DNA of 64,000 nucleotides, from assembly GCA_003963305.1 (NCBI GenBank), contig RXJR01000004.1, forward strand, positions 494,562 to 558,561, given 5' to 3'. This DNA is from Candidatus Melainabacteria bacterium. Lineage in GTDB: Bacteria > Cyanobacteriota > Vampirovibrionia > Obscuribacterales > Obscuribacteraceae. The translations under genes and the position numbers were made by a program. Below the pieces are notes generated by a model. The model was not told the DNA's origin, made no database searches, and saw nothing but the letters and a program-made list of their open reading frames with translations. Of the stretch, positions 19,718 to 45,941 are shown piece after piece (the first letter of the stretch is position 1; every line of letters begins with the position of its first letter).

Positions 19718-19729
19718 GTCAAATTTGAC
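19718..19729. other. 12-bp palindrome GTCAAATTTGAC between convergent genes
   Basis: A perfect palindrome touches the stop codon of the minus-strand gene at 19729. It lies in the 48-bp gap between two gene ends, with a nearby TGGCT...AGCCA stem, so it may help end transcription. There is no clear T run. Confidence 0.35.
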
Positions 19730-20451
19730 TAATAACCCTTTTGAAAAAAATATATCTCATCCCTTCCGGCCGGGTAAGACCGCAGATGAATGCTTAGTTG
19801 CGCGCCCTGAGCCACCCTCATTCCAGGGAAAAATCCATAACGACTCAAAGCACCAGCCATCTGATCAAACTTGTCTCTGGGCACAACAACGTATCCTGCC
19901 ACAATATCGTGAATCCACAAGTCCACGAGGATTCTCACGAGTGCATTGGCAATGGCATAGGTATGGTCGTTTTCTCCATCTCGGGGCTGGACGAAAATGA
20001 TTCCAAATTTATAGCTCTCGATCTGGAGTTGCTCATTACGCTTCAAACCAATAGGCATCTCTTCTCGATACCAGAACTCCTCATACACACGCGCCTTCTT
20101 GTAGTCGGCAGCGCGCAGACCACGTGCCAGAGGGCGATAAATCACACGCAGATTAGTAAGAGGATGCAATTTAGAAGTAGGATAGTTCAAAACATTTTTC
20201 ATGTCATGGACGTCCATGTACATGGCCCAGTCATACTGTTCTTCAAGTTTCGGATCCAACAAGTCTGCATTAATATCGGCAGAGCACGGGACGGTGCAAA
20301 GTCCAACAAGAGTGCTCAGTGCAAAAACCACCGCAGCAAGCCAAACAAGGCACAATCGTAAACCGTGCGCTACAGGCAGTTTCGCACCCGGAAACCGTCC
20401 GATCCAATTCAAAGCCAGGGAGATCATCGTTGACATCAACTCAACTAACAT
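19729..20451 (-). CDS. Exported or membrane-anchored protein of unknown function
   Basis: 240 residues. A hydrophobic segment at about 28-58 (LCLVWLAAVVFALSTLVGLC) is followed by VPCSADINADL, consistent with a signal peptide or anchor. The mature part is mixed alpha/beta with many Tyr, Arg and Asp residues (QYDWAMYMDVHDMKNVLNYP, YRPLARGLRAADYKKARVYE). I know no matching family. It is the last gene of the minus-strand set that begins with the GT-C transferase, 44 bp after the nucleotidyltransferase gene, so a role at the envelope is plausible. Confidence 0.6.
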   Translation of the reverse strand: MLVELMSTMISLALNWIGRFPGAKLPVAHGLRLCLVWLAAVVFALSTLVGLCTVPCSADINADLLDPKLEEQYDWAMYMDVHDMKNVLNYPTSKLHPLTNLRVIYRPLARGLRAADYKKARVYEEFWYREEMPIGLKRNEQLQIESYKFGIIFVQPRDGENDHTYAIANALVRILVDLWIHDIVAGYVVVPRDKFDQMAGALSRYGFFPGMRVAQGAQLSIHLRSYPAGRDEIYFFQKGY

Positions 20452-20495
20452 CGTTCTTTATCATAGCGCGGCACTCAGGTTAACCACAAAAACCC

Positions 20496-21707
20496 TCACT
20501 CAGCGCGAGTCCACGTCAAACGCCTGCGCGCCGCATCACAGAAAAGCCAGAGCGGATGCAGCGCAAAATAGAGAAAAAATAGAGGCTCAGGCAATTTTAG
20601 TCTCAAAAGGTCAGGAACTGTAGGCTGTAAAAATTCCCGCGCTAAAAAGCGAAACTTGGCCTGCGCTCCAGACAACAGAGTTGCACTGAACTTGCAGTAG
20701 CGAACCATGAGACCTTCACCCTCCAGCTTCATAGCAGGCAGGTTGTGCACCACATCTTCAACAAGTGACTCTAATGTTTTCGTCTTTCTCTCAAGTGCGA
20801 TGGACGGCAACTTAGAATCGAAGAAGCGATTCGACAGAAGCAGTCCTAATGTCACCATCTCGCTGACATTAAGTCGGTCGGCAAAGTCATAAACTCTGCG
20901 CCAATCAAAATCTTGACAGTTGTCCAACAACTGAGCGATGTCACAAATCCAGATCAGACGATCCCAGGCATGCTTTGAGGCATGAGCAGTGAGCACCACA
21001 AACAAAAGATTTGGCTCGATGGTTCGTACAGTACGCCCCTCCAGAGAAATTTCTACCGTATTGGCGAGAACTTCAGTTGAAGTCAACGGCAAAAGATGCG
21101 AAGGCTGCACCTCCCAGTGAACATCGATTACGCCCGTAGGAAATTGCCTGGCAAATGTATGCTCTGTCGTTACCGATAAAAAACGGTCAGACTGAAAAAA
21201 CGATTCGCTAAGAGGAGGATCACGTTCGGGCAAGGGCTTGTAGCCGAGAGTGAGCAATTGTTTCTGCGTCGTCTTCACGTCCTTTTTGTCGACAAAAACA
21301 TCCACATCACCAAACTCACGTAAAAACAAATCGTTGTAAGCAAGCAAGGCTAAAGCTGGTCCTTTGAAGATAGCCGACTTTACGCCCTGTTTTTCCAGTT
21401 CTCTGTAAAAACGGAGAAACGTACCAACCAACGCTAAATTCTGCGTCGATATCTGCTTCATGCGAACGTTTAATTGGGATATCACTTCGCCTGGCACATC
21501 AGTCTCGAAGTGCGCCTTCACATGTTTCATAAAAGCCGGCACTACGCCATGAAAGGCAGCAGCAGAAAGAAGATATGACCAGTCAAGCCCATCTTTAGCC
21601 AGCCCCTTCGCCCGCTTAAGACGCGATTCCGGCAAAGAGGGCAGCGCAAGACAAACGAGGAACTCGAGTTCCTTTGCATGTGTCAGGCTTACAGGGAAGT
21701 TCAACAT
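20496..21707 (-). CDS. NTP_transf_5-type nucleotidyltransferase family protein
   Basis: A 403-residue protein. The family signature is FKGPALALLAYNDLFLREFGDVDVFVDKKDV, where the GDVDVFV acidic pair is the metal site of the nucleotidyltransferase fold; VIDVHWEV later also fits. Members of this uncharacterised family occur beside lasso-peptide and exopolysaccharide genes, often with PqqD-like and HPr-kinase-like proteins; here such genes lie divergently 3 kb away. It starts 6 bp after the epimerase stop, so they are cotranscribed. Substrate unknown. Confidence 0.82.
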   Translation of the reverse strand: MLNFPVSLTHAKELEFLVCLALPSLPESRLKRAKGLAKDGLDWSYLLSAAAFHGVVPAFMKHVKAHFETDVPGEVISQLNVRMKQISTQNLALVGTFLRFYRELEKQGVKSAIFKGPALALLAYNDLFLREFGDVDVFVDKKDVKTTQKQLLTLGYKPLPERDPPLSESFFQSDRFLSVTTEHTFARQFPTGVIDVHWEVQPSHLLPLTSTEVLANTVEISLEGRTVRTIEPNLLFVVLTAHASKHAWDRLIWICDIAQLLDNCQDFDWRRVYDFADRLNVSEMVTLGLLLSNRFFDSKLPSIALERKTKTLESLVEDVVHNLPAMKLEGEGLMVRYCKFSATLLSGAQAKFRFLAREFLQPTVPDLLRLKLPEPLFFLYFALHPLWLFCDAARRRLTWTRAE

Positions 21708-21713
21708 TTCAAG

Positions 21714-22553
21714 TTACATTGCGGGAATCAATTTCCGAAACTCCCACCGCAGTTTCGCGAGATAACCAGGGCGCAGTCGGACTTTCGCAGGGTTCACAAC
21801 CAGTCCATCTTGCGCCTCGAACGCGAGGAGTTTTTCAGTCGACTCAACATCCCAGCAAGACCCGGCGTTACGAGAGATGCCGTGAGCTATAGCAAATTTA
21901 GGCTCAAACTCTTGCTGCAAACAGCGATCCATCAAGGCATAAAAATCACTATTGGACATCCACAATTGTTTCAGCCATTCATCCGTCCGCGCTGGGAAGT
22001 CCTCAGCAGCGTTCTTGCCTTGCATAATGAATCCAATCCGCACGACGATCACTTCCAATGCATGCTCCTCAGAGTATCGCCGAGCCAGCTTTTCACCAAA
22101 AACCTTTGTGGTAGCATATACGGTGCTGTCATAACTCCAGCCATCCTGAACAAAGTGACCACCGGCATAAGTCTCAAGGTCGGTTGTAATCGTTGCCGGC
22201 TCTGCGATGAACCGATACATTCCCATCACATGACTCGAACTGGCAAATATGACACGGCGTACTCCCGCGTCTACAGCAGCCTTGAACACATTCATTGTGC
22301 CGTAGATATTAGTGCGGATCAGTCTATGCCTATCCGCACAGCCAATGCCATCGGCAGCAAGATGGATGACCGCATCGGCACCAACGAACCGATCGACCCA
22401 GCTGCTGTTCCAGCAGCCGACATCCGCCGTCTCTATCTCATTATCCCCATTCGTGCTGCGATCCAGCAGCCGTAATTGGTAGCGATCTTTCCAATGCTGA
22501 CGTAACTTTCCGCCAAGATTGCCACTTGCTCCAGTTATTACAACAGTTTTCAT
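21714..22553 (-). CDS. NAD(P)-dependent sugar epimerase/dehydratase-like protein (extended SDR)
   Basis: 279 residues. The Rossmann dinucleotide motif GASGNLGG opens the protein. DAVIHLAADG, the Ser of FASSSHVMG and the YATTK catalytic Tyr/Lys pair follow in the expected order. Members act on nucleotide-linked sugars or related substrates; the substrate cannot be read. ATG 22553 is chosen for GGAGAG 7 nt upstream; a frame from 22574 adds seven residues. It lies between the GT-C transferase and the nucleotidyltransferase, in one operon. Confidence 0.88.
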   Translation of the reverse strand: MKTVVITGASGNLGGKLRQHWKDRYQLRLLDRSTNGDNEIETADVGCWNSSWVDRFVGADAVIHLAADGIGCADRHRLIRTNIYGTMNVFKAAVDAGVRRVIFASSSHVMGMYRFIAEPATITTDLETYAGGHFVQDGWSYDSTVYATTKVFGEKLARRYSEEHALEVIVVRIGFIMQGKNAAEDFPARTDEWLKQLWMSNSDFYALMDRCLQQEFEPKFAIAHGISRNAGSCWDVESTEKLLAFEAQDGLVVNPAKVRLRPGYLAKLRWEFRKLIPAM

Positions 22554-22566
22554 GGGCGCTCTCCGA

Positions 22567-24561
22567 TCAGCCATGCATGCGGATTGGTTTTGAGGGAACG
22601 GTTATCTGTCTCAGAAGCTCTTCCCAGCCATGCCCAACCTTGAATGCAGAAACTGTTTCGTCGTTATAAACCTCTGTGAAACAGCTCTGACCGCGAAGCC
22701 AATCAACGACGGCAGGTTTATGCGGTGAACCGGTATAGCTATGGGGGTCGACAGAGATCAAAATCAAGTCCGGATGAAACTGCCTAATTATAGCCAGCAC
22801 TCTAATCTCTCCATCGTGCTCCAGAATATGAGAATGTAAATCGTAAAACACATCATTCTGCAAATTAATGCCGTACAGACCCCACGGACGAAGCCCCGCC
22901 GAGTAAATGCGCTGCGGTTCAGTAAAGGCTTGCACCCACCGGTAAATTTTAGTTGTCGGCAGTCCTTTGACATTCTCATAGCCGGGCATGCCAGGCGTGG
23001 GCTCCCTGTGCAGAAACTGATTGTATGATGGAACGATTAGAAGAATCCCAGCCAGACTGCTTATCCAGACTAGTGAGTGAATCTTGATGCAGTTCAGGTA
23101 AGCGGCTCTGGCAGAAACGAAAATAGCAATGAGAATTGCAGCCACAATGTAAGCAGCTATTATTTTCCTATCCTGGAAATTCAGACTGCCCGCAGCAATA
23201 TCGACACTGGTCGGCATGAAGGCAAACGCGCCTAAGCCCAGGGCAGTAAATAAGAAAATGCATAACAGTGGCACTGCATTTGCATATTTCGAGCGATTCT
23301 TTATGCAATAAACGAAAAAACTGAGAGTTGTCAAACAGACGAACGCATAAAGTGCGCCGCGATCAAACGGATTGTAGAGTTCAGCATGACGCCACTGATG
23401 AACCAGCGCCATGCGATAAGTTTCCGCCACCACATCCGGTGCAACTAATTGATGAAACATAACCAGATTTCGAAACTGAAAGAACCCGCCCAATAGAAGG
23501 CTTGCGGACAGGGTCGCCAGCGCGGAGGGGAATGAAAAAAGAACGGTACTGCGAGCCGCGGAAGTTTTCGCAGAATCAGCCGGAATGTTCGCTGCATCAT
23601 GACCTGGCAATCGAACCCCAGCCATAAATCCGAATAAAGGCAAGTAGACGAGTGATGGAAGCTTAACGGCGATGCTCAAGCCATAGGCGATAGCGGCAAG
23701 ACCTAGCAAGGCCTTATGCCTGACCCGATCAGGCTTTTGACTGAGACTGTCAAGCAAGCATGCAAATGCTGCCAGAAGAGCGGCAGCTTCAAAGACGTCA
23801 TTTTTACCGACGGCAAAAATATCGGACTTGAACCAACACAACCAGAGAGCCAGTGAAATGACGTAGACGGCAAATTTATTGACCGGCAACTTGGACGGCG
23901 CGAGGACTATTTTGCTTACCATTTCTGCAGCGTAAATCGTCGCGAAGAAAAGCAGAATAACCGAGAGGGTATTTGCTGCAATCAACCCCCAGGAAGAATG
24001 AAAAAACAGCAGCGACAGCCCACCTATCAGCTCGTAGCCCTGGCTATAACTCTGGAAAGGTCCGTCACTAGACCAGAGCGTCTGGTTACGGATAAACTCG
24101 GCCAGACCGGGTAGATGATAACTGACCACATCCCAGCTCAGCTCCGGCTCCGGAGACAGAAACATCCCGGGCAAGCGCTTCAGGTAATCTGCAAGCGGAC
24201 TCAGTGCCACCAGTCCAACTATCGAGAGTGCAACAGTGCCGATGCTCCAGGAGTAAGATCGCAGTTCGGAACTGAGTTCGGAACTTAGCTCAAACTTAGA
24301 GACTGTCAAACCAGGACGAATTCCATACCCCGTCCAGATCAGAATCGAAGCCGATAATGAGACAAAAACTGTCGAGGCCGTAACAAAGACCGGAGTGTAG
24401 TGACCTGCGGCACCAGGGATTAATGAGCCCAGATAGAGCAATACGGAACCAATAATGCCACAGGTTAGAAAAGTCGGCAGTTTAAGAACTCGAGCAACTT
24501 CAGCAGTCTGCAGTAGAACCGGGATGAGCGATAAATAAATCACTGTAAAGAGAGCACACAT
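22567..24561 (-). CDS. Polytopic GT-C-type membrane glycosyltransferase-like protein
   Basis: 664 residues with roughly 12 hydrophobic segments. After the fourth segment comes WDVVSYHLPGLAEFIRNQTLW, matching the acidic first-loop motif of GT-C transferases that use polyprenyl-phosphate sugars (compare PMT/ArnT-like proteins). The last 150 residues form a soluble domain outside the membrane (PHSYTGSPHKP region). It heads the leftward operon and is divergent from the PqqD-like gene across 150 bp. Donor and acceptor are unknown; transfer of a sugar outside the membrane is inferred from the family. Confidence 0.75.
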   Translation of the reverse strand: MCALFTVIYLSLIPVLLQTAEVARVLKLPTFLTCGIIGSVLLYLGSLIPGAAGHYTPVFVTASTVFVSLSASILIWTGYGIRPGLTVSKFELSSELSSELRSYSWSIGTVALSIVGLVALSPLADYLKRLPGMFLSPEPELSWDVVSYHLPGLAEFIRNQTLWSSDGPFQSYSQGYELIGGLSLLFFHSSWGLIAANTLSVILLFFATIYAAEMVSKIVLAPSKLPVNKFAVYVISLALWLCWFKSDIFAVGKNDVFEAAALLAAFACLLDSLSQKPDRVRHKALLGLAAIAYGLSIAVKLPSLVYLPLFGFMAGVRLPGHDAANIPADSAKTSAARSTVLFSFPSALATLSASLLLGGFFQFRNLVMFHQLVAPDVVAETYRMALVHQWRHAELYNPFDRGALYAFVCLTTLSFFVYCIKNRSKYANAVPLLCIFLFTALGLGAFAFMPTSVDIAAGSLNFQDRKIIAAYIVAAILIAIFVSARAAYLNCIKIHSLVWISSLAGILLIVPSYNQFLHREPTPGMPGYENVKGLPTTKIYRWVQAFTEPQRIYSAGLRPWGLYGINLQNDVFYDLHSHILEHDGEIRVLAIIRQFHPDLILISVDPHSYTGSPHKPAVVDWLRGQSCFTEVYNDETVSAFKVGHGWEELLRQITVPSKPIRMHG

Positions 24562-24709
24562 GGTCTAAGTGTGCGGTGCAACCCTTCATCCGTCATTGAA
24601 TCTAATTAATAGAAAGCGGCATTTTAGCGGCTTTGGCGCCTGATTCAGTACGCCTTCTCTGGTGTTGAGGCAGTGCCAGTGCTCAAACTTAACAAGTAAG
24701 CGGTCGTTA

Positions 24710-25033
24710 ATGCAGCAAACACGGGCATCCTGGGAAAATGACATCTCGTTTTACCTGTCGGAATCCAAGCGCATGTTGAAGACAAAAGAAGAGATCATCT
24801 GGCGTGTCGTCGATGACGAGGCATTGCTCCTCGACACTGACAGCGGCTACTACTTCTCGATGAATGACACAGCTACCGAGATCTGGTGCCTCCTCAACGA
24901 AGGCAAAAGCATCGACGACGTCGCGACGACGATATCTGAACGCTACGAAATCGACAGCGAAAGCGTCAGACGCGATGTTCAGGAGCTGATTGCCAACTTG
25001 AACAAAGAACAGATCGCCAGCCTTGGAGAATAG
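24710..25033 (+). CDS. PqqD-like RiPP recognition element protein
   Basis: 107 residues matching the PqqD fold: IIWRVVDDEALLLDTDSGYY, FSMNDTATEIWCLLNEGKS, and a C-terminal helix VRRDVQELIANL. Such stand-alone recognition elements bind leader peptides of ribosomal peptide precursors and hand them to modifying enzymes. The next gene, 4 nt on, encodes a peptide with the cognate YxxPxL leader motif. ATG 24710 is preferred; GTG 24662 and ATG 24773 are alternatives. First gene of a seven-gene operon with a kinase-like protein and glycosyltransferases. Confidence 0.88.
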   Translation: MQQTRASWENDISFYLSESKRMLKTKEEIIWRVVDDEALLLDTDSGYYFSMNDTATEIWCLLNEGKSIDDVATTISERYEIDSESVRRDVQELIANLNKEQIASLGE

Positions 25034-25037
25034 TCAA

Positions 25038-25190
25038 ATGAGCGACACCACTTCCCAGCCGGTACAAACCGAAAAGCATGAAGATCTCAAGACTGCTGCG
25101 GAGAAACCAGCCGAAAAGAAACAATACAAGAAGCCGGAACTTCGCAAATACACACAGATCGATTATGTCACCGCATATGGTGTCGATTAG
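25038..25190 (+). CDS. Small peptide with lasso-type leader motif and almost no core
   Basis: A 50-residue peptide read directly from the sequence (ATG 25038, TAG 25188). The first 28 residues are polar and Lys/Glu-rich. Residues 30-45 follow the lasso-precursor leader consensus YxxPxLxxxGxxxxxT: Tyr30, Pro33, Leu35 and Thr45 match, while Thr39 replaces Gly. Only AYGVD follows Thr45, so there is no room for a lasso ring and tail. It sits 4 nt after the PqqD-like gene and 6 nt before the kinase-like gene. It may be a carrier or tag peptide, or a degenerate precursor. Confidence 0.78.
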   Translation: MSDTTSQPVQTEKHEDLKTAAEKPAEKKQYKKPELRKYTQIDYVTAYGVD

Positions 25191-25196
25191 GTTTTA

Positions 25197-26270
25197 ATGC
25201 ATCTGAAACCGGTTGAATCAAGCTGCGATAAAAGCGTCTACGAGTTCGAGATTCTGCTGCACTTCCTCTCCCTGGAAGTCAAAACGCACAGCCAGCGCAT
25301 CCACAAGTGGCTCACGAGTTACTACAGTCCTTACGATCAACGCGATATCTTCAGCGACCACTCAGCATCCTATAAACTCGAACTGGAAGAGATAGGTTCG
25401 GTCTTTGCCCACGACCTGGAAACTTCAGGCGAGGGAGTTTTCACTAAATTCTGCCTGGCCAATTCCCACTGCCATTACAGAGATGGAGTCTTCTACTCCA
25501 ATGGAGAAGGTCAATTTGCGCACCAGATCGAAATAGACGTTCGTCGACGCTCGATGCGTGCAAACATCGGTGGCGAATTTATCGAGTCAGAAGAGAGCTT
25601 TATCTACAACGTAATGCGTGATGTACTCGGTAAGCTCTTGCTGCCTCTCAATAATCTTATGAGCATGCACGGAGCAGTAGTAACAAATGGCTCCAGAACG
25701 ATATTTCTGGCCGGTGACAAGGGCATGGGTAAAAGCACCATCTCCCTCAAGCTGCTGGAAAACGGTTATCGCATTCTCTCAGACGACAGCCCGTTGTTTA
25801 CCTTCATTGACGGTAGGACCTTGGTTCTATCATCACTGGACGAATTGAGCGTAACTACCAACACGCTTAAACTATTTCCGAGTCTGAACGAATTCGTCTC
25901 ACGTCAACGCGAAATCTCTGGAAAACACTTTGTCTCTCGATCAGCCCTCGGGAAAGAGAAGGTTGCGTCTGGACCATTGCCAATTACTGATTTCATTGAG
26001 TTGAAGCGAGGTCCCTGCCAACAGCCGAGCCTGACGGAAGTCAGTAAAAATAAAGTTACCGGTGATCTGATCAGGGAGTTCATGTCGATTTTCGGTCCAC
26101 AAATCACACTCTCTTCAGATCCGAAGCTTTTCAAACGAGCTACAAAATTCATATTCGACACGACCAGCGCGATGCTCCTGGAAGCCCGAGCCTTCGAGCT
26201 TCGTTATGACGACCGGGATCTGGAAAAGATACCAGAGCTAATCGCATCCACCACTGGTGGTGCAAGATGA
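25197..26270 (+). CDS. HPr-kinase-like P-loop protein
   Basis: 357 residues. The C-terminal half has MHGA (157-160), a Walker A loop GDKGMGKS (173-180) and SDDSPLF (195-201), the order seen in HprK-related kinases of RiPP and polysaccharide loci. The N-terminal 130 residues are a variable domain. In paeninodin-type lasso clusters a related kinase phosphorylates the precursor's C-terminal Ser; here the neighbouring peptide ends in Asp, so another substrate is likely. It overlaps the first GT4 gene by 4 nt (ATGA). Confidence 0.82.
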   Translation: MHLKPVESSCDKSVYEFEILLHFLSLEVKTHSQRIHKWLTSYYSPYDQRDIFSDHSASYKLELEEIGSVFAHDLETSGEGVFTKFCLANSHCHYRDGVFYSNGEGQFAHQIEIDVRRRSMRANIGGEFIESEESFIYNVMRDVLGKLLLPLNNLMSMHGAVVTNGSRTIFLAGDKGMGKSTISLKLLENGYRILSDDSPLFTFIDGRTLVLSSLDELSVTTNTLKLFPSLNEFVSRQREISGKHFVSRSALGKEKVASGPLPITDFIELKRGPCQQPSLTEVSKNKVTGDLIREFMSIFGPQITLSSDPKLFKRATKFIFDTTSAMLLEARAFELRYDDRDLEKIPELIASTTGGAR

Positions 26271-27712
26271 GCGGCGCGCTATTTTGCCTGGCCAACGCCT
26301 CCATAAGCGGCGGTAATAAAGCAATTCTCGAATACGCCAGGGGACTAAAGCGCAGCGGTCAAACTGCTGAGATTTACATATGGCACGCAGATAAAAACCT
26401 GGACTGGTTCGACCATGAACTGACGGTAGTTCAAGCACCGGATATTGAAACTGCCGTAAGCGGCAACTACGCTGTCGTCTTTTTCGCAAAGGCATTTCTC
26501 ATCCCACTGGCATTTTCTTCTCTCAACTCTGCAAAACCGGTGTTCATCTGTCACGATTTTGAAAGCGCCTATGCAGCTACATCATTCGACTCAATCAACC
26601 TGGAGTGCCCTCCTTTTGATGACGTCTTACGCTTGCCCATCGACATCATTACGACCTCGAGACCTGTTCAACAAATCATCAGCGAGCGCCACCAAAAGCA
26701 TGCCTATTATGTGCCTCTGGCTATCGATAAAGAATTGTTTTCCAAGCAGTCAGGCCCTGCGAAAGAACGCGCCCGCAAAAGAATTCTCATGGTGGGAGAC
26801 CATCTACTACCGACTAAGGGGATTCGGGACGGACTGAGGGCATTGAAGCTCCTGAACGACGAGCTGCCGGTGGAACTCGTCTTGATTACTCGAGAACACC
26901 GCGGTCAGCAGATCTTCGAGAATCTCGGATACCCGTGCGAAATTCACATACGCCCTGACGCAGAAGAATTCCCCCACATCTACGCAAGTTGCGACGCCTA
27001 TTGTTGCACTTCCTGGTACGAAGGATTTGGATTACCCGCGCTTGAAGCATTCAGAATGGGGATTCCCGTCGTTTCAACCAGAAACTCCGGCGTCACCAAC
27101 TATGGTATCGACGAAGAGAACCTGCTGCTGTGCAACCCAAATGACCCGACCGACTTATGCCAGAAACTGAGAAGGGTTCTTAAAGAGGAAAAGCTCCGCA
27201 ACAAGCTTATTGAACAGGGGGAGATGACCGAAGACAAGTTCAATTGGGAACTCGCCGTGACTGAATTTCTTGCCTGTCAGCAGAAGATTCTTACCGACTC
27301 CGGCACAAAGACAAGAGTGACAGAATCACAGCTCGAAAAATTACTTGTTAATCTCGAAGAGGGCGGGCTCTATACACCACACGCAGTGCACGTACGATGC
27401 AGCCACATTTTTCACGAAATCGACAAAGTTCTCATGCAGCTGACCGAACAACGCATCGACTTGCTGCCGGGGTTGGAAAAGTTGCAAGGATTACGTGACG
27501 AGTTGAAACCGTTCCTTGCCATGCCGGGCGCCGAATACTACAAAAGCTGCAAAAAACGCTATGACCTCTGTCAACTAGTCATAGGTTTAGCAGATGATCA
27601 TCGCTTTCTCGAACACCTTTCCAAGCTAATCGCTCAAATCAACAGGCTTGAATCAGCAGTTCCCGCCGCAGACAGGAACAGCCCTGTAGTAGCAGGGAGT
27701 AGCCGCTCATGA
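26267..27712 (+). CDS. GT4-family glycosyltransferase with C-terminal extension (copy 1)
   Basis: 481 residues. The GT-B C-domain shows RILMVGDHLLPTKG, then YASCDAYCCTSWYEGFGLPALEAF with the E-x7-E pair that binds the nucleotide-sugar donor. The N-terminus (LFCLANASISGGNKAILEYA) matches copies 2 and 3. After about residue 350 comes an extension of some 125 residues containing LEEGGLYTP and YDLCQ, shared by all three copies and unknown to me elsewhere. It overlaps its neighbours by 4 nt at both ends, so translation is tightly coupled. Confidence 0.88.
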   Translation: MSGALFCLANASISGGNKAILEYARGLKRSGQTAEIYIWHADKNLDWFDHELTVVQAPDIETAVSGNYAVVFFAKAFLIPLAFSSLNSAKPVFICHDFESAYAATSFDSINLECPPFDDVLRLPIDIITTSRPVQQIISERHQKHAYYVPLAIDKELFSKQSGPAKERARKRILMVGDHLLPTKGIRDGLRALKLLNDELPVELVLITREHRGQQIFENLGYPCEIHIRPDAEEFPHIYASCDAYCCTSWYEGFGLPALEAFRMGIPVVSTRNSGVTNYGIDEENLLLCNPNDPTDLCQKLRRVLKEEKLRNKLIEQGEMTEDKFNWELAVTEFLACQQKILTDSGTKTRVTESQLEKLLVNLEEGGLYTPHAVHVRCSHIFHEIDKVLMQLTEQRIDLLPGLEKLQGLRDELKPFLAMPGAEYYKSCKKRYDLCQLVIGLADDHRFLEHLSKLIAQINRLESAVPAADRNSPVVAGSSRS

Positions 27713-28440
27713 CACCGAAAGTAACAGCAATCGTTTCAACCTACTGTGCTGCCAGGTATTTACCAACTCAGCTCAACAACTTACTGTCACAGACATTGTC
27801 AGACGCGCTGGAAATAATCGTCGTTGATAGTGGTTCCCTTCAAAACGAAGCCGAAATCGTCAGCGACTATCAAAAGAATCATCAAAATATAGCCTACATC
27901 AGGAGCGAAAGAGAAACTCTCTATGGCGCCTGGAATCGAGCCGTGGCAGCTGCTCATGGCCAATATTTGATCAACGCAAACACAGACGACAGACTCAGCG
28001 CAAATACTTACGAAGTGCTCGCCAGTACTCTTGATGCGAATCCCGAGGTTGGACTGGTCTACTCTGACGCATGGGAAACTGAAGACGACTATGACATTCT
28101 AAACTTTGAGACTCTGTCCCCGCTGGAAAACTGGACACGCATTGAAACACCTGAATACAGCCACAAAGAACTTTTACTGCGCTGCTTCATCGGAGCATTT
28201 CCAATGTGGCGGCGGTCCCTTCATGAAAGATTCGGTACCTTCGACCCCGGCTTCACAGTCGCCGGCGACTATGATTTCTGGCTGCGCATTGCAGAACACG
28301 TTCCATTCAAACGCGTGGCACAACCGCTCGGTCTAATTCTGGAATCGCCGGATAGCGTTCTCTGCCGAAACAAGGGCAAACTTTTCGAAGAAATGGGATT
28401 ACTCAGACGCAAGTATTTTGCCCCCGCCAGGCGAACCTAG
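27709..28440 (+). CDS. GT2-family glycosyltransferase
   Basis: 243 residues with a GT-A fold: AIVSTYCAARYLPTQLNNLLSQ at the start, IIVVDSGS, YGAWNRAVAAAHGQYLINANTDDR (the NTDDR takes the DxD role for metal and donor binding), and AGDYDFWLRIAEH toward the end. No membrane segment. It is placed between GT4 copies 1 and 2 with ATGA overlap upstream. Donor and acceptor cannot be read. Confidence 0.9.
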   Translation: MTPKVTAIVSTYCAARYLPTQLNNLLSQTLSDALEIIVVDSGSLQNEAEIVSDYQKNHQNIAYIRSERETLYGAWNRAVAAAHGQYLINANTDDRLSANTYEVLASTLDANPEVGLVYSDAWETEDDYDILNFETLSPLENWTRIETPEYSHKELLLRCFIGAFPMWRRSLHERFGTFDPGFTVAGDYDFWLRIAEHVPFKRVAQPLGLILESPDSVLCRNKGKLFEEMGLLRRKYFAPARRT

Positions 28441-28460
28441 AGCGAGACAGCGAGACCAAA

Positions 28461-29831
28461 ATGTACAGAACACTGTTTTGCCTGGACAGCGATTCGATTA
28501 GCGGCGGTATCAAACTGTGTCGAGAGATTATGCAGGCACTTCAGAACGATGGACAGGAAGTTGCATACCTCGTCTGGAATTCACGACGGAGATTCGAGGG
28601 ATGGAACAACCTGCCTGTTGAAAGAATCGAGAGAATCGAGGATATCGCCGCCAAAAACTTCGATTTTGTAGTTTTCTCCAACGCCTACTTAGCACCACTT
28701 ATATTGCCCTTTGTTGGGAACGCTCATCCTGTCTTGTACTACATGGCCCACGAAAGCTATCATTACGGCTCGACATACGCCGAGTGTATGACTGAGTCAG
28801 AAGCATTTCTGAATATTCTGCGCTTGCCGATTTCAATAGTCTCAATTTCGGAAGCACTCAGAACCATACTCATGAGCAAAACGGGACGTCATTCGTACTA
28901 CATCCCGGTTGGTCCAGACAAAAAATTCTTCACTCCACGCCCTCCGAAAGACCGTAGCGCATCTCGAAAGCGCATCTTGCTGGTCGGTGATTACAATCTG
29001 AACTGGAAAGGCATGCAAGACGCTCTCACCGCTGTCGAGATGCTCTCACACGACGTGAATGTCGAGCTTGTGCTCATAACTCAGGGAAGGCATGGTAGAA
29101 AAATATTCGACCACTACGAATTTCCCATTGAAATAAACTACCAACCACCGCTCGCAGCAATACCGGACATTTATGCCAGCTGCCACGTCTACTGCTGTTC
29201 GTCTTGGCATGAAGGACTTGGACTGGCAGCCCTGGAAGCCTTCAGCTGCGGGGTCCCTGCCGTGTGCACCCGAAACCACGGCGTCGATGATTACGGAGTG
29301 GACAACGAATCAGTACTCCTCGCTGAGCCGAACAATCCGCAGGACCTGTGCAATAAACTCAAAGTAATTTTGACAGACGAGGTTCTGTCTTCGAAATTAC
29401 GAAAAAATGCCTTTGATCAGGCCAAAAGATACGAACCTGGCAAAGTCTTGCAAGCATGGAAAGAAGCGCAACAACAGATTCTCTCCGAGCCTCTTGCAGT
29501 CGTCGAAGCTGCCGAAATGAATCAACTTTTGACTGCATTAGAAGAGGAAGGTATGTATACCCCACTGGTGACACTAGATGCATTGCAGAATTTGAATAGC
29601 GCTATCGATTCCATATGCGATGATTTATTGAATCAGCGCCTACAAGCAGATCAAGGTATTGAGCGGCTATCAGCTATAAGAAATGAGCTGAAACAATACA
29701 CGCAGAATACGAATACTCAATATTTCAAATCTTTCAAAGCCGGCTATGACTTATGCCAGCTGCTGATCGCGTTCAAAGATGCTCCTGATTTCTTAAAGTG
29801 TGTTTCGACTCTATCAGCGCGGAACAAGTGA
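28461..29831 (+). CDS. GT4-family glycosyltransferase with C-terminal extension (copy 2)
   Basis: 456 residues, paralogous to copies 1 and 3. Shared parts are the N-terminal LFCLDSDSISGG, the donor-binding SSWHEGLGLAALEAF E-x7-E region, VYCCSSW, and the C-terminal extension with LEEEGMYTP and YDLCQ. In copy 2 the usual YEGFGLP becomes HEGLGLA, a modest change that could alter donor choice. It starts 20 bp after the GT2 gene. Confidence 0.87.
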   Translation: MYRTLFCLDSDSISGGIKLCREIMQALQNDGQEVAYLVWNSRRRFEGWNNLPVERIERIEDIAAKNFDFVVFSNAYLAPLILPFVGNAHPVLYYMAHESYHYGSTYAECMTESEAFLNILRLPISIVSISEALRTILMSKTGRHSYYIPVGPDKKFFTPRPPKDRSASRKRILLVGDYNLNWKGMQDALTAVEMLSHDVNVELVLITQGRHGRKIFDHYEFPIEINYQPPLAAIPDIYASCHVYCCSSWHEGLGLAALEAFSCGVPAVCTRNHGVDDYGVDNESVLLAEPNNPQDLCNKLKVILTDEVLSSKLRKNAFDQAKRYEPGKVLQAWKEAQQQILSEPLAVVEAAEMNQLLTALEEEGMYTPLVTLDALQNLNSAIDSICDDLLNQRLQADQGIERLSAIRNELKQYTQNTNTQYFKSFKAGYDLCQLLIAFKDAPDFLKCVSTLSARNK

Positions 29832-29836
29832 TTCGG

Positions 29837-31243
29837 ATGAAAGGTCGCATCTTATTCTGCCTCACCAGCAACACCATCAGCGGTGCCAATCGCGTACTGC
29901 TCGAGCTGGCAGAACGAGCTTCAACAATGGGATATAAATGTGTGATTCATTTCTGGAACCCCGTTGCCAATCAGAACTGGTATCAAGAAAAAATCAGGTC
30001 ACCAGAGGCTACTTCGCATAATGCGCTGCCGGTGTTATCAGAAGAGGCAGAGATTCAAAAAGCAGTTGCAAGTGATTTTGATTTTGTCCTCTTTTCGAAT
30101 GCGTTTTTACTGCCTCTAGCTCTCCCAGCCATAAAAGACGCCCGACCTCTCTTAATTTGTCAGGGATACGAAGGCTATTGCCATGCGAATTCTTTTAAGG
30201 ATACTTTCAAAAGCAACGAAACAATGGCCAAACTCTATCAATTACCGATAGACAAAATTGCAATCTCCGAATCCGTGCAGCGCATTCTTTCGACGACTCT
30301 AGCTACAGATTCTTACCTGGTTCCACCCGCGGTAGACAAAACAGTTTTTGTTCCTATGCCTGAGCGCGAATTCACAGCCTCTCCAAAAAGAATTCTTGCG
30401 GTCGGCAACTATCTGTGGCCCCTGAAAGGAATGGCAGACCTGCGCGAAGCCTTGCAAAGCTTATCCAGTCAGCTACCAATAGAACTCGTTCTTGTAACAC
30501 AACAAAAGAAAGGACGGGAATTTTTCGACAATTGTTCTTTTCCTGTTCAGTACCATTACCAACCACCACAGCAAGAATTAGCAGCCATCTACGCCAGTTG
30601 CGATGCATACTGTTGTGCTTCATGGTACGAGGGTTTTGGACTGCCTTGCCTGGAAGCATTTTCTGTCGGACTACCGGTCGTTTGCACAGCCAATCAAGGT
30701 GTCTCCGACTTCGGGCTGGACGAAGTCAACCTTCTCATAGCGACGCCAAATGATTCTCGAAGCATCGAGAATCAACTAAAGAGAATATTGACTGACAAAA
30801 ACCTGATCCAAAAACTCCGCCTCAACGGACGAAAAACGCTTGAACAGTACAACTGGGATCTGACAATGAAAGCTTTCGAACAGTGCCTTGATCGATGCAA
30901 ACAAAAACAACCAGTGCCGATATCAGAAGACGTTCTGCAGACACTGAACATTGAACTGGAAGAGTCCGGACTGTACACGCCCCTGGCACGCCACAAACAG
31001 CTGACTCTATTATCAGAGCGACTGGAAGAGACATTGAAGAATCTGAAAACAACCGCTCAAGATTCGAACGCAATAAATTCGCTGCGTGACATTCGAGATT
31101 TGCTTGTCCCGGAATTGTCGAACAAAAACTCTGAGCTGTATCAGCAGTTTAAAGCTCGTTATGACCTCTGTCAGATGCTTCTGTCCTGCACCGACCATCC
31201 AAACTTCACTAATATTGTGCAATCACTGAGTCGGCAACAATGA
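29837..31243 (+). CDS. GT4-family glycosyltransferase with C-terminal extension (copy 3)
   Basis: About 468 residues, starting at ATG 29837 (MKGRILFCL), which aligns with the starts of copies 1 and 2 and lies 5 bp after the previous stop; the frame from 29798 adds 13 residues inside the preceding gene. Donor-site region ASWYEGFGLPCLEAF, shared extension with LEESGLYTP and YDLCQ. Last gene of the operon, followed by a long hairpin. Confidence 0.87.
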   Translation: MKGRILFCLTSNTISGANRVLLELAERASTMGYKCVIHFWNPVANQNWYQEKIRSPEATSHNALPVLSEEAEIQKAVASDFDFVLFSNAFLLPLALPAIKDARPLLICQGYEGYCHANSFKDTFKSNETMAKLYQLPIDKIAISESVQRILSTTLATDSYLVPPAVDKTVFVPMPEREFTASPKRILAVGNYLWPLKGMADLREALQSLSSQLPIELVLVTQQKKGREFFDNCSFPVQYHYQPPQQELAAIYASCDAYCCASWYEGFGLPCLEAFSVGLPVVCTANQGVSDFGLDEVNLLIATPNDSRSIENQLKRILTDKNLIQKLRLNGRKTLEQYNWDLTMKAFEQCLDRCKQKQPVPISEDVLQTLNIELEESGLYTPLARHKQLTLLSERLEETLKNLKTTAQDSNAINSLRDIRDLLVPELSNKNSELYQQFKARYDLCQMLLSCTDHPNFTNIVQSLSRQQ

Positions 31244-31280
31244 ATAAATCGGCACGTGAAAGGTCGGAAACAAAAGAAAT

Positions 31281-31328
31281 CTGGCGGATGCTAAGTTCAA
31301 CATTACGTTGAAGTTCGCCATCCGCCAG
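31281..31328. terminator. Long hairpin at the end of the glycosyltransferase operon
   Basis: Perfect 10-bp arms CTGGCGGATG/CATCCGCCAG enclose an inner 6-bp stem TTCAAC/GTTGAA with loop ATTAC. It lies between convergent genes. There is no strict T run on either strand, so it may be a terminator, an RNA-stabilising stem or both. Confidence 0.5.
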
Positions 31329-31367
31329 AGTTAGAGTTGCTGTTTATCGTTGTTTATCGCGCGTTTC

Positions 31368-32237
31368 CTAGTTAGGAGGAGCGATAGGTCCGAGGTAGGT
31401 GGCCTTGACCAACCCGCCGAAAGAACCGTTCTGTCGGGCGCGCTGGATGTTGCAGTGCTCGCTGGTCGCCAGACAGAACGGCGGCGAACCGGCATTCGGA
31501 CAGGCACCGGCACCGGCAGTGGCGCACAACGTAGCGTTGTACGGGAAGACTCCCGTCAGCGAGCAGTTGTTGTCACAAGCGGCACCCTGATTGCAATTGA
31601 CATTCACCCACGAGTTCTGAATGTGTGTGACGTTGTTGTTGCCAGCTCCGGCATTCCAGTTCGGACCACCCTGAAAATCAACTGAGATTGTTGTATTAGC
31701 TCCGTTTACACAGCTAATATCGACAGTTTCCTGGAACGATCCTGGCGCGTTCAAGGTCGCTTCGACAAAGTTTGTGCCATTTGGCAGATTCGGTCCGGGC
31801 ACGAATGGTTTGTCACCAGCGCAGGTGTTCGAACACGGACACTGCGGGTGATTCAAAAATGTGACGTTCAGACCATCCAGGCAACTAGCGCCATTTGCAG
31901 GCTTGATATAGGCTCCACGGCCTCTCTTGAGGGAGAAGTAACCAAGCTGCTGGTTGTCAGCGAACTGAGTGATGGCAATCGGGTTGTTGTTGTTGACGTC
32001 GATGATCTGCAATTGAGTCAATCTTGTCGCACCGCAACCGAGATTACTGCTCGTCGGCAGCACAACCCACACGTTCACGTCGGGATTGCTGGGGTTATAG
32101 ACTTGAAATGTGGTATCGATCCCCGCCGATTGCGAAGATCCACCAAGAGAACGAGCTTGAGCTGTAGTCACCGAACTACACAGAAAAAGTACTAGAAGTG
32201 CCGCAAAGGCAACGAATGACCTGAATTTCGTCATCAT
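31368..32237 (-). CDS. Exported Cys-rich protein, possibly thaumatin-like
   Basis: 289 residues with a clear signal peptide (FAALLVLFLCSSVTTAQA) and about 17 Cys residues in the mature part, many in pairs that suggest disulfides and export to an oxidising space. TFQVYNPSNPDVNVWVVL near the start and ETVDISCVNGANTTISVDF in the middle resemble thaumatin-family strands (usually DISLVDGFN). The C-terminal Cys block (CDNNCSLTG, CATAGAGACPNAG) also fits loosely. Asn-rich. Stands alone. The thaumatin link is tentative. Confidence 0.65.
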   Translation of the reverse strand: MMTKFRSFVAFAALLVLFLCSSVTTAQARSLGGSSQSAGIDTTFQVYNPSNPDVNVWVVLPTSSNLGCGATRLTQLQIIDVNNNNPIAITQFADNQQLGYFSLKRGRGAYIKPANGASCLDGLNVTFLNHPQCPCSNTCAGDKPFVPGPNLPNGTNFVEATLNAPGSFQETVDISCVNGANTTISVDFQGGPNWNAGAGNNNVTHIQNSWVNVNCNQGAACDNNCSLTGVFPYNATLCATAGAGACPNAGSPPFCLATSEHCNIQRARQNGSFGGLVKATYLGPIAPPN

Positions 32238-32513: not shown

Positions 32514-33140
32514 CTAAATGTACCGGCTCTTGCGCAGCTCGGCATCATGGGCGGTGGCAGCTTCGACAGTGGCGAAATTTGGTTCTTGTCCCAGAACAAT
32601 CTGGCAATACGCCTCGTACATCTGGAAGGCAGCCACTGCCGGTGCGGTTTTTCCAGCACCGGTTCCCATGCCGACTAAAGCTACTGAATCTATTTTCGAT
32701 TCACCGCCATGGTCCTCGCGCTCTTGCCGAATGTAAGCCGCAAGCGCACGAAATGCTGCTCTTGTCGCAAGGTAGCTATTCACATTTGCATTGGTCATGC
32801 GCAACGGAACACGCATGGTCGGAGCGATGATTGCTAACTTCGGTTTATCCAGATTGGTGCTGATTACTTCAGCGCATCCAACCGGTAACTCACCGGCGTG
32901 CTTATCCTGAATCAATTTGCGAACTCTGGACTCCAGTCTTCCATCAGTGAGTTTGTTCAACTGTGCTCCGAGCCCATCATCCATGATGCCAAAGCTGTTG
33001 GCCGGAGTGACCAGAACTGAAACATCAAGGTCGAAAACACTCCCTTCAGAAATGTCGACTTTAGCATTCCGCCCGAAGAAGGCAGACCATGACTTTACTA
33101 TCTCTGGGTTGGTATCTCGCAAATGCACGACAAGCGGCAT
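32514..33140 (-). CDS. Macrodomain protein (predicted ADP-ribose binding)
   Basis: 208 residues. The macrodomain core is VDISEGSVFDLDVSVLVTPANSFGIMDDGLGAQL, with the NSFG and following glycines forming the ADP-ribose pocket, and the C-terminal VALVGMGTGAGKTAPAVAAFQMYEAY. Members bind or hydrolyse ADP-ribose, ADP-ribose phosphate or modified proteins. Located 72 bp downstream of the tubulin-like gene on the same strand, so it may share its transcript. Cytoplasmic; substrate unknown. Confidence 0.88.
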   Translation of the reverse strand: MPLVVHLRDTNPEIVKSWSAFFGRNAKVDISEGSVFDLDVSVLVTPANSFGIMDDGLGAQLNKLTDGRLESRVRKLIQDKHAGELPVGCAEVISTNLDKPKLAIIAPTMRVPLRMTNANVNSYLATRAAFRALAAYIRQEREDHGGESKIDSVALVGMGTGAGKTAPAVAAFQMYEAYCQIVLGQEPNFATVEAATAHDAELRKSRYI

Positions 33141-33212: not shown

Positions 33213-36200
33213 TCACGAAGGTGCCTTCGCAGTCACCGGTTCTTCGGCAGTCGGTTCACTACTAGACTTTTCTGACCCGGAAGCGGCAGTGCCATCGACT
33301 TTAGTCCCAGGTTCCGCAGCAACTGTGGTTTCGACTTTCGCGACAGTCTCTGTAACCGCACTGACCGGCGCAGCTTTGACGTGTCGCTGTGGACACTCAG
33401 TGCCCTTGGGCAACATGCGCTTCTCCTTGCCTTCCTTGCGGCATATATCACACTCAATCAGGTCTTTAAAACAGCGCGGACACTTCGTCGTATCCGGCGT
33501 CACAGGGCAGCTGCAAGAGACACACAACACAATCGGTGGACCTTCGAAGATGCACCTGTCACTACCCTTAGTGCATATTGTTGGTTTCTCCAGAGGCGCG
33601 TTGCAGTAAGGACAAAGATTCGCCCAGACTGAACCACAACTTGGACAGTAGCTCTTGGCGCCACCAGCCTCACTTCCTGTCTTCAAGATCATCGTCTCAG
33701 GATTCTCACGACCTAATGTCACACATCCAGGACAGAGCTCTTTCTTCGCATCGCCACGCTGAAGCGGCCAGGTCTTTTCCTGCGCCTTCTTATCTTCAAT
33801 CACAATCGCAGAACACTCAGGACACTTGCGGCTGCCCTCGTCGATTATGTGTTGACATTTTGGACACAACATTTTGCCTGGCACAATGAGCGTTTTCATT
33901 CCAGCTTTCGAACAAGCAGGGCAGAACTTTGCATCATCTGCAAGAGCGGCAGTAATGTCATGCCCAACCGGGCAAGTCTTGACGGAAGTATCCTCAGGCA
34001 CCTCATACGAAAGCCACTGTAGATAAGGGTTCGGCTCGGTGACGAACTTCACGTCTGTATGCATCGGGTTCATCTTGCGATCAGTATTTCTGTAATAATT
34101 TTCGTAATCGGCAATGCCGTTCATTGATGCCAGCGAATAAAGTGGATCGTATTGCTTCACTACTACACGTGGCTCGACATCCGAAAGAACGATATCGGTA
34201 GTGCGAAAATTCGGAATCTGCTCCTGCAAATCCTCGACCACTGTCTCTGGAATTTTGATTCCATTCAAACCGACGAACGTCACAGGCGAACTGGCAGAGC
34301 CAATCTGATGGGTCTGCACTGACCACAACGGACTGCTGTGCGCAATCATGAGCGGCAGCAGATTATCATTGGCGAAATCAAGCAACAAACTCCGTCCATC
34401 AGAATTTGTATATAAAGGTTCTTTGATTGTGCCGCTCTGGGGATCACTGGGGAAAAGCTTGTCAAAGAGCTTCTCTTTGACGAATACGCGAATCATCTCC
34501 TCCACTTTTTGTTTCTTGGAATCTGCGTCGATGGATGGATCCAGATGCATGGCGAATAATTTGCCGGCCAGTTCAGATGTAATCAGACTCTTCGTCTCAG
34601 TCGAAAGCACAGGAGAAACCGCTTTCCAGTCATTTTTCTCCCACAGTTGTGCCAGTAAACCGTCAAGAAAACGCTCCACTTCTTTTCGACCGATCAAAGA
34701 CTTGTCGATCAGCACTCTCTCCTGTGATGTATCACCCATCGTCGCTATGCGCGCGGAAAGCTTCTGCTCACCTTCCTTATTGACGACAGTGATCGTGTCC
34801 GAAAGCGACTTGATACTTGCGTGCACAGATTGGAACAGCTTGATCAGGTCATTGTAGAAATTGACCAGCATGCTGCGACTGCGACCGTCACGCCCGAAAT
34901 TATCGTAATAGTTTGCCAGGCGCTCCAGGAGAACTTCCACAGTATCTCGCAAAACGGGCAGCTGCACATCATTTGAAACGCGCTGCAGCGAATCCATCGC
35001 TTCTTTTACAGGTCTTCTGGCATCACCTTCATGCACCTCCAATGGTGGCACCTGTGCCAATTTTTGCTGCGCCAAAGCAATCAATTCCTCAAGGTACTCT
35101 CGCAGGAACACATATCCACGCTCCGGATCCTTGACGTACGATTTAAGCCCTGTATCCAGAACAGACGAAATATTACTGATTGCCTGCTTACTGGCGGATG
35201 CGGCAATCTTCTCAATCTCGAGAGGACTTTCTGGATCAACCGTTTCAGAAACAATTGTGTCCGACCATTGCTTCAACTTGTTTATGCAAGCCGGTCGATT
35301 CTGTTTGAACTCTTCAAAGAAGGCACGCGAAAGGTAACGTCCGTATGAGGCATCAGTACCAAGACTTGCTTTCAGCGTCAGCGAATCTTCTATCTTGGAC
35401 AAGTTATCTGCAAAGAATTGCTTTGCTAGAGCCTTCTCGGTGATGTCCGGGTCCGGCCTGAGCAGAAAGTCAACCACCGCATCTGTAATCTTGATTTCAA
35501 GCAGATCCTGAAAGTACGCAATCGGTGGCACCTTAACCGACGATACACCAACAGCAGAATATGCTTTATAGAAGGTGCGATCGCCCATCGTTTCCGGTTC
35601 GCTAATCGACGTAAAAATGTTGCTTAAAATCGACTCGCTCCGCTCAGTCAGAGGCGACAACACATCAGTCATGATAGTCTCAGACATATACTGTGACACA
35701 CGATCATCGGCTGCAACTGGTTTATCGCCGGAAACCTGACGCTGCGAAATCACCGCACCGCGCTTGTTTTTATTGCTGAACATGAAAGTAAAATCAAATG
35801 GTGGCACATCCTTTGGGAAATCAACAAAAGTGTGATCCTTCCCTTTGATAATGTAGGAGCGCTTGGGACTGTTGAGGAGGTAGTCCAGCTCTCTCAAGGC
35901 CGCATAGCCATTCGAGTAAATGCGCCGGATATGCTGGTTTTCCACGACCGGCTCGTATACCTCAGGCATGACAAACATGCCTATAAATCGTCGCGTCGAT
36001 GGATCTACACCGACAATTTTTCTGAGCATATAGGCAACATCCAGAAACATACCACTGCCGGTGCCACCACATATGGAGCAAATGATATAAACGAACTGCA
36101 AGGTAGGGTCGACTTCAAAATTTGTGAAATCTTCCCAGGCAGCCGGATCGGATACTTCGTGAGCAGCTTGTTGCAACCATCTGTAAGTAGTGTGCAGATT

Positions 36201-45638: not shown

Positions 45639-45941
45639 GGAAATCTCCGAACCTAGTTTTTAAAATCTGGCACTTGGGCCACTGGTTAATTGTAACAACG
45701 CCTCAGAGAACTGACGGAGTATTCCAAAACTCCATATGTGGAAAGGTAAGGGATGACGCCCCCTTCGTCAAGTCAATCCCTTTCCAGCACGCAGATTTGA
45801 GACGCCAAGGGTATATCAAGTATGGGAAATATACGAAGCCTGTGGGATATCCCCCAATAGACTTGGCAGCCGCGGAATCGTTAAGCTGTGCTCACATTCG
45901 GAAATTATATGTATTGCACCTCACCAGATTTTCAAGCAAAA
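45639..45941. other. Divergent promoter region of the response regulator and the TPR-RpoB-like operon
   Basis: 303 bp without a gene. It contains a bulged stem-loop (45740-45785, GGAAAG/CTTTCC with inner GGGAT/ATCCC) and a perfect palindrome GGGATATCCC at 45844-45853. These could be control sites for either gene. No confident -10/-35 pair was picked. Confidence 0.45.

Follow-up and report, generated by a model that had tools for sequence, protein, structure and literature searches.

In known lasso peptide systems, the precursor is phosphorylated by a kinase, and the phosphate then receives one or two hexoses from PsmN (PMC9266682). The linear polyphosphorylated peptides (LPPs; Nat Commun 2026, PMC13381572), which are described as restricted to Bacillota, form a cyclase-less family of ribosomally synthesized and post-translationally modified peptides (RiPPs) built on a RiPP recognition element (RRE), an HprK-type kinase and a nucleotidyltransferase (NTP transferase), and capsule loci are a frequent setting of LPP and paeninodin clusters. 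Here, we analyze a gene cassette from the draft genome (G000, 95% complete) of a Candidatus Melainabacteria bacterium, presumably a non-photosynthetic cyanobacterium, located in a 64,000-nucleotide stretch of contig RXJR01000004.1 (positions 494,562 to 558,561; hereafter, the window, whose positions are used throughout). The cassette encodes a PqqD-like RRE, a 50-aa precursor-like peptide and an HprK-like kinase (hereafter, the trio) along with glycosyltransferases (GTs). A second copy was found in the metagenome-assembled genome “Cyanobacteria bacterium SZAS-4” of the same genus (G055; draft, 87% complete).

The cassette is real, conserved and unusual, and is a variant of the lasso-derived linear RiPPs. 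Our preferred reading, to which we give about even chances, is that it is a lasso-derived RiPP cassette that gave up the lasso and that, guided by the RRE, phosphorylates and glycosylates a linear peptide without cleaving it. The support consists of gene content, co-mobility, selection on the peptide tail, the absence of lasso maturation genes and the exclusive linkage of a GT4 extension to the trio. LPPs are the closest published system, and the window cassette would work, by analogy, as their cyclase-less, glycosylated cousin. In the open-access literature searched, we found no description of this cassette, and PMC13381572 was the only account of a closely similar system.

The window system shares with LPPs a discrete RRE, a precursor with a YxxP motif, an HprK-like kinase, an NTP transferase, independence from a cyclase and GT-rich surroundings; moreover, the LPP RRE family is derived from lasso RREs (PMC13381572). 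However, LPP clusters encode a SpI-type (SipW-type) leader peptidase and an exporter resembling MsbA; their leaders carry the motif YxxPxVLxHQxIxFETxxS, and their cores, in which a Ser is phosphorylated, are long and variable (45 aa in LppA; PMC13381572). The window system has instead an invariant Ser-free tail, which ends five residues past the Thr at lasso position −2, and GT4s with a private extension within the operon. Neither an SpI-like peptidase nor an MsbA-like exporter, nor any peptidase or exporter domain, was found in a scan of ten cassette proteins, which did not extend to the rest of the genome, and the window sequence YKKPELRKYTQIDYVTAYGVD clearly fits the LPP motif only at Y..P. 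Because the peptidase, exporter and leader motif are absent from the cassette, we do not file it as an LPP. With the paeninodin and pseudomycoidin lasso systems, the cassette shares an RRE, a leader motif with Thr at −2, a kinase with the His-Lys-Asp-Asp residues and an NTP transferase; it differs from them in lacking the leader peptidase B2, the cyclase C, an ABC exporter, a ring-sized core and a C-terminal Ser, and in the addition of GT4 and GT2 genes (PMC9266682).

A tight operon of recognition element, peptide, kinase and glycosyltransferases

The genes for the RRE (24773..25033), the peptide (25038..25190), the kinase (25197..26270), GT4a (26267..27712), GT2 (27709..28440), GT4b (28461..29831) and GT4c (29837..31243), all on the plus strand, form one tight operon. 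The RRE and peptide genes are separated by 4 nt and the peptide and kinase genes by 6 nt, whereas the kinase and GT4a genes, as well as the GT4a and GT2 genes, overlap by ATGA. The two gaps, the ATGA overlap after the kinase and the complement of three GT4 enzymes and one GT2 had all been read correctly in the first-pass annotation, which was made from the sequence alone. Its PqqD-like element was also confirmed (Pfam PqqD, E 9.5e-18), with the difference that the best start is the ATG at 24773 and not the in-frame ATG further upstream at 24710. For GT4c, the start is the ATG at 29837, the alternative listed GTG at 29798 being one that would overlap the preceding gene. The GT assignments rest on matches to Glycos_transf_1 (E 1.8e-23, 1.7e-20 and 2.9e-20 for GT4a, GT4b and GT4c, respectively) and Glycos_transf_2 (E 2.5e-20 for GT2).

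The window RRE is of the lasso type (B1). Its best NCBIfam model is lasso_PqqD_Strm, at 64.2 bits slightly below the cut-off of 70, and its best relative in the PDB is the lasso RRE TbiB1 (E 1.3e-11), ahead of 9x8z and 9x90, the entries given for LppB and PbaB1 (PMC13381572). The kinase matches Hpr_kinase_C with E 1e-6 and 28.9 bits, under the Pfam cut-off of 33.3; its residues His158, Lys179, Asp196 and Asp197 are all present and are invariant in comparison with two lasso-cluster kinases. The HPr-rel-A system likewise combines a PqqD-like protein with an HprK-like kinase, but membership was rejected because both window proteins score under the curated NCBIfam cut-offs (37 vs 200 and 23.3 vs 35 bits; TIGR04352/TIGR04353).

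Three minus-strand genes lie on the other side of the RRE gene. The NTP transferase, NTP_transf_5 (20496..21707; PF14907, E 2.6e-49), is a relative of the lasso-cluster nucleotidyltransferases and has the FKGP and DxD segments in common with them. It is indeed divergent from the operon, as the first-pass annotation had stated, but two genes separate them. The first of these encodes an NAD-dependent epimerase/dehydrogenase of the short-chain dehydrogenase/reductase type (SDR; 21714..22574; PF01370, E 7.8e-21), the nearest NCBIfam model of which is NF041293 (NAD-dependent glucose-6-phosphate dehydrogenase Azf; 125 bits, under the cut-off of 400). The second encodes a 664-aa polytopic membrane protein (22567..24561), for which Pfam and PDB searches gave no significant match and the predicted structure reached a predicted local distance difference test score (pLDDT) of only 34, so that the model was not used. 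On motif grounds only, this protein may be GT-C-like.

The peptide retains the lasso leader register but has almost no core

The C-terminal part of the window peptide reads ...QYKKPELRKYTQIDYVTAYGVD, and the lasso precursors that adjoin homologous kinases in other genomes read ...YSSPKLTSYGTVVELTKGDVGSVDDGGGQLAG (G045), ...YATPKIVSYGNIKKLTLSVDRKLSGKSDGPSFLA (G012) and ...YHTPKLKKFGSVSDLTLTSPFAGNSSFDGGAFPNSYVAAGS (G404). Its predicted RRE-binding motif YKKPEL (25125..25142, +), which has the form Y..P.L, aligns without gaps with YVKPTL (G055), YSSPKL (G045), YATPKI (G012) and YHTPKL (G404). With the motif Tyr counted as position 1, these peptides share Pro4, a hydrophobic residue in position 6 and Thr16, again without gaps, and five precursors of a further genome (G479) fit this register too. 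In lasso precursors, the penultimate residue of the leader is known to be Thr (PMC10368454). Beyond this Thr, the window peptide has only Ala (−1) and then four residues, Tyr-Gly-Val-Asp. A lasso ring needs 7–9 residues plus a tail; therefore, no lasso ring is possible in this peptide. Two features are peculiar to the window and G055 peptides: position 10 is Thr or Ser instead of Gly, and positions 14 and 18 are both Tyr. In the window peptide, Thr39 stands where G055 has Ser and where the other lasso leaders examined have Gly, and the 44 C-terminal residues include no Ser.

A chance open reading frame was rejected as an explanation of the peptide because a counterpart occupies the equivalent place in G055 and the tail shows synonymous changes only. 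The G055 peptide is 58 aa long and has a divergent head; nevertheless, its last 11 residues are identical to the window block QIDYVTAYGVD (25155..25187, +). Of these 11 codons, 7 differ synonymously and none nonsynonymously, and the stop codon differs as well. By the Nei-Gojobori method, the tail has 0 nonsynonymous differences over 24.3 sites, compared with 34.6 over 68.6 sites in the 28 aligned codons upstream. The proportion of nonsynonymous differences (pN) is 0.25 for the RRE, 0.36 for the kinase and 0.38 for NTP_transf_5, at proportions of synonymous differences (pS) of 0.74–0.81, which are near saturation. Thus, the cassette is under purifying selection, and the peptide tail is its most constrained part among those tested. 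Among 289 genomes of the class, the tail pattern matched exactly in the window's own genome and in G055; a third match (G129) was discarded as a chance hit, with 3 mismatches, inside a 163-aa reading frame and with no stop codon after the tail.

A C-terminal extension of the GT4 enzymes accompanies the trio

Each of the five GT4s at the two loci (three in the window, two in G055) is extended at its C terminus by about 110–130 residues (30842..31240, +, in GT4c). The predicted structure of GT4c (pLDDT 81) has a GT-B fold with GT4 matches in the PDB, and the extension is helical in this model; a Foldseek search with the model returned ordinary GT-B sugar transferases. With the window copy of the extension as query (E <= 1e-4), all 5 matches in the 289 class genomes were at the two trio loci. 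A profile of the extension run against 386 genomes of the phylum recovered the three window copies at E <= 2.4e-50 and, in addition, five single weak matches (E 1.3e-5 to 8.8e-4). We consider the restriction of the extension to the two trio loci among the class genomes the strongest evidence that the GTs and the trio belong to one system.

Outside the window cassette, both genomes also encode a GT2 with a C-terminal PqqD domain (L012:4620-5801 in G055; L017:9087-10244, on contig C6, in the window's genome), and the G055 gene immediately precedes an extension GT4 gene, the two overlapping by 1 nt. Both GT2-PqqD genes adjoin a gene for a protein of 566–574 aa, which gave no Pfam match when the G055 copy was scanned. 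The GT2-PqqD genes possibly represent a second RRE-guided glycosylation system, and RRE-GT2 fusions are on record (PMC12710340). In another genome of the same family of organisms (G146, L020:386-1737), an RRE/PqqD gene is followed after a few bases by a gene that reads as GT2-like, an apparently unfused version of the RRE-GT2 pairing. Two more PqqD-like genes were seen in the window's own genome (contig C1, L004 and L006), each beside a gene for a 429–448 aa protein of one apparent kind; no kinase is present in the short stretch seen.

A second cassette at a different chromosomal site

Both cassettes contain the divergent membrane protein, the RRE, the peptide, the kinase, the GT2, the extension GT4s and NTP_transf_5. 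The kinases are 46% identical, the NTP_transf_5 proteins 46.8%, the 664-aa membrane protein and the 671-aa G055 protein at the equivalent position 36–39%, and GT4b and the G055 GT4 at L012:5801-7180 43.7%; a GT2-like gene was also read downstream of the G055 kinase. That the nucleotidyltransferase is linked to the trio, an element of the first-pass annotation, is borne out by its presence in both cassettes. When the two cassettes were compared, no counterpart of the SDR was found in G055; the G055 cassette has, in turn, PhyH, MBOAT, a second membrane protein and an SGNH-like protein (by reading, without a Pfam match).

The limits of the window cassette are approximately 20452..31367. In G055, homologues of the flanking stretches 19729-20451 and 31368-32237 stand 2 bp apart and co-directional (L037:462-1412 and 1415-2041), and the homologues of the flanking genes are neighbors in G142 (L036) as well, so that neither of the two other genomes compared within the genus has the cassette at this position. 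Most likely, the window's genome gained an insertion of about 10.9 kb that separates two genes adjacent in G055. The G055 cassette lies on a different contig; its neighbors are found in synteny in the window's genome (C6, L017), where the cassette is missing. The arrangement is not due to chance, since a second genome has it at another chromosomal site. A recent compositional island was rejected as a description of the cassette, the GC content being 48.5% compared with 49.9% for the window; no direct or inverted repeats of at least 10 bases were found between the two cassette-end stretches compared, and no tRNA genes were found in the window.

Across the 289 class genomes, the kinase matched 4 (E <= 1e-5): its own, G055, G012 and G045, the last two at 26–27% identity. 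The RRE matched 4 as well (E <= 1e-6): its own, G055, G146 and G012. The kinase profile matched 4 of the 386 phylum genomes (E <= 1e-8), namely, its own, G045, G404 and G479. A scan of genome contigs with a two-row RRE alignment returned one locus, on contig JAFEAT010000001.1 of SZAS-4, which we take to be the G055 locus, and used two short patterns that would miss distant relatives. No relative of the RRE was found in a scan of viral contigs, and a plasmid search with the kinase gave a single weak match (25.5%).

Lasso clusters contain distant relatives of the trio

According to the first-pass annotation, a genuine link would have the trio always accompanied by GTs and never by a cyclase. This is the case at both close loci (G000 and G055), but the four distant kinase homologues, in G045 and G012 of the same class and G404 and G479 of the same phylum, adjoin cyclases. 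In these lasso clusters, NTP_transf_5 was confirmed in G045, G012 and G404; an RRE gene was confirmed in G045 and read in G012 and G479; and B2 was confirmed in G045 and G012 and read in G479. They resemble the window cassette in having a homologous kinase and a lasso-type precursor and differ from it in the cyclase, in exporter-like proteins of about 600 aa (by reading) and in precursor cores of at least 15 residues. Because the distant kinase homologues sit beside lasso precursors and cyclases, we derive the trio from lasso clusters. In the simplest history, B2, C and the exporter would have disappeared from a paeninodin-like lasso cluster, whose core was shortened to four residues and which acquired GTs.

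Two further observations concern these clusters. In G012 (L014:11110-13036), tandem genes between NTP_transf_5 and the kinase encode proteins of 313 and 327 aa, the C termini of which read as RRE-like; these are possibly enzyme-RRE fusions. The G479 cluster (L051:2834-4844) encodes five tandem lasso-type precursors with near-identical leaders.

No lasso maturation enzymes were found in the window's genome

In agreement with the first-pass annotation, neither a cyclase nor Transglut_core3 nor radical SAM was present among the ten cassette proteins scanned; peptidase and ABC exporter domains were equally absent from these ten, and the whole genome was not searched for the peptidase, exporter and radical SAM domains. 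A Pfam search for Transglut_core3 (B2) was negative in the window's genome and in all 5 relatives, including G055, whereas B2 proteins are recognized by this Pfam family in G045 and G012. The window's genome has one Asn_synthase, which starts with MCGIVGY and bears Cys2. We take the MCGI start to denote a glutamine-dependent AsnB of the housekeeping type, and the sole asparagine synthetase of this genome accordingly looks like a housekeeping enzyme, not a lasso cyclase. A complete lasso cluster elsewhere in the genome, a finding that the first-pass annotation had named as fatal to its proposal, was thus looked for and rejected.

Other genes of the window

A full-length RpoB-like protein of 1316 aa, above the NCBIfam cut-off, is encoded at 47945-51892 (+), directly after a TPR protein gene (45888-47948), with no rpoC beside it among the neighbors scanned. 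At 33213-36593 (−), a gene encodes a 1126-aa Tubulin_2-like protein with a zinc ribbon; it adjoins a Macro-domain gene (32514-33140), and a VWA gene lies nearby (37061-38782).

Discussion

Under the preferred reading, the RRE would bind the Y..P.L motif of the 50-aa peptide, as its homology suggests, and present the peptide to the HprK-like kinase, which would phosphorylate a hydroxyl in or just before the invariant block. Thr39 is the first candidate for the phosphosite, followed by Tyr43, Thr45 and Tyr47. By analogy with PsmN in pseudomycoidin, where PsmK and PsmN provide the precedent (PMC9266682), NTP_transf_5 may then join a sugar or nucleotide to the phosphate, and the extension GT4s and the GT2 would elongate the glycan. 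Because the cassette lacks B2, a cyclase and an ABC exporter, and because only four residues follow the lasso cleavage position, the product would be linear and probably uncleaved, either a phosphorylated glycopeptide or a peptide-anchored glycan. At a guess, the 664-aa membrane protein exports or extends it. The suggestion of the first-pass annotation, a leader-guided glycosylation or phosphorylation system or a recognition pair recruited to glycan assembly, is less isolated given the published LPP family (PMC13381572).

With fair probability, the product that carries the modifications is the leader itself. In its most specific form, which we offer tentatively and hold to be less than evenly likely, this idea says that a core-less, uncleaved lasso leader became a genetically encoded, phosphate-linked anchor for a glycan built by GT4s that dock via their C-terminal domain.

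Several points weigh against the preferred reading. There are just two loci in one genus, which simple co-inheritance might explain, and both genomes are drafts. The genome-wide search for asparagine synthetases covered the window's genome and not G055. The distant kinase homologues all sit in lasso clusters with an Asn_synthase cyclase and a lasso-type precursor; the G045 and G012 kinases are just 18–27% identical to that of the window. The invariant block is Ser-free, whereas the described lasso and LPP kinases modify Ser; LppK accepted neither S3T nor S3Y, that is, it refuses Thr and Tyr at its site (PMC13381572). The ten cassette proteins contain no transporter or peptidase domain that would account for export. 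Five weak matches to the extension profile lie elsewhere in the phylum; two of these loci were read (L043 and L047), and no GT4 was seen among their reading frames. Finally, the GTs may serve to build an ordinary surface glycan and have no more than the cassette in common with the trio.

Among the alternatives, the likeliest is a regulatory module, in which an HPr-like, unglycosylated peptide is a phospho-carrier or switch and its RRE-bound states turn the GT4/GT2 surface-glycan machinery on and off. The founding HprK phosphorylates a small regulatory protein, HPr, and the window kinase has the HprK fold; with no peptidase or exporter domain in the cassette, the peptide would remain cytosolic, and the private GT4 extension could dock the RRE or the peptide. 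However, NTP_transf_5 is kept in both cassettes and, in lasso clusters, this protein modifies the phosphate, an activity that regulation does not need (PMC9266682). We consider this explanation unlikely.

Alternatively, the GTs, NTP_transf_5, the SDR and the membrane protein could make a surface polysaccharide, with the trio as a separate, co-travelling linear phosphopeptide system. The G055 cassette adds MBOAT, PhyH and SGNH-like genes, which we take to be of the surface-glycan type. The frequent location of LPP and paeninodin clusters inside capsule loci fits as well (PMC13381572). Nevertheless, the trio and the GTs form a single operon with ATGA overlaps, and the GT4 extension is present only beside the trio, which makes this account, too, an improbable one, slightly more so than regulation.

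RiPP leaders can act in trans, and the peptide, a lasso leader plus four residues, might be a free-standing leader that activates the RRE, the kinase and the GTs on a protein encoded elsewhere. No second substrate was seen at either locus, although no systematic search was made, and the last four residues, which a mere leader would not need, are invariant too; the chances of this explanation appear slim. If a lasso cluster had decayed and the core of its precursor had been lost, the missing B2, C and exporter would be accounted for; however, this is very unlikely because of the purifying selection on the tail, where only synonymous changes occur, and on the RRE, kinase and NTP_transf_5 genes, where pS is far above pN, and is further contradicted by the intact catalytic residues of the kinase and the recurrence of the gene set at a second site.

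If the preferred reading is true, the cyclase-less, lasso-derived RiPP branch would extend beyond Bacillota, and the lasso recognition pair would be reusable to guide glycan assembly. With this cassette, it becomes testable whether a kinase, a nucleotidyltransferase and glycosyltransferases can all act on a RiPP leader that has almost no core. The GT4 extension provides a searchable marker of such systems, and the RRE-GT2 fusion of the same genomes would offer a second handle on RRE-guided glycosylation.

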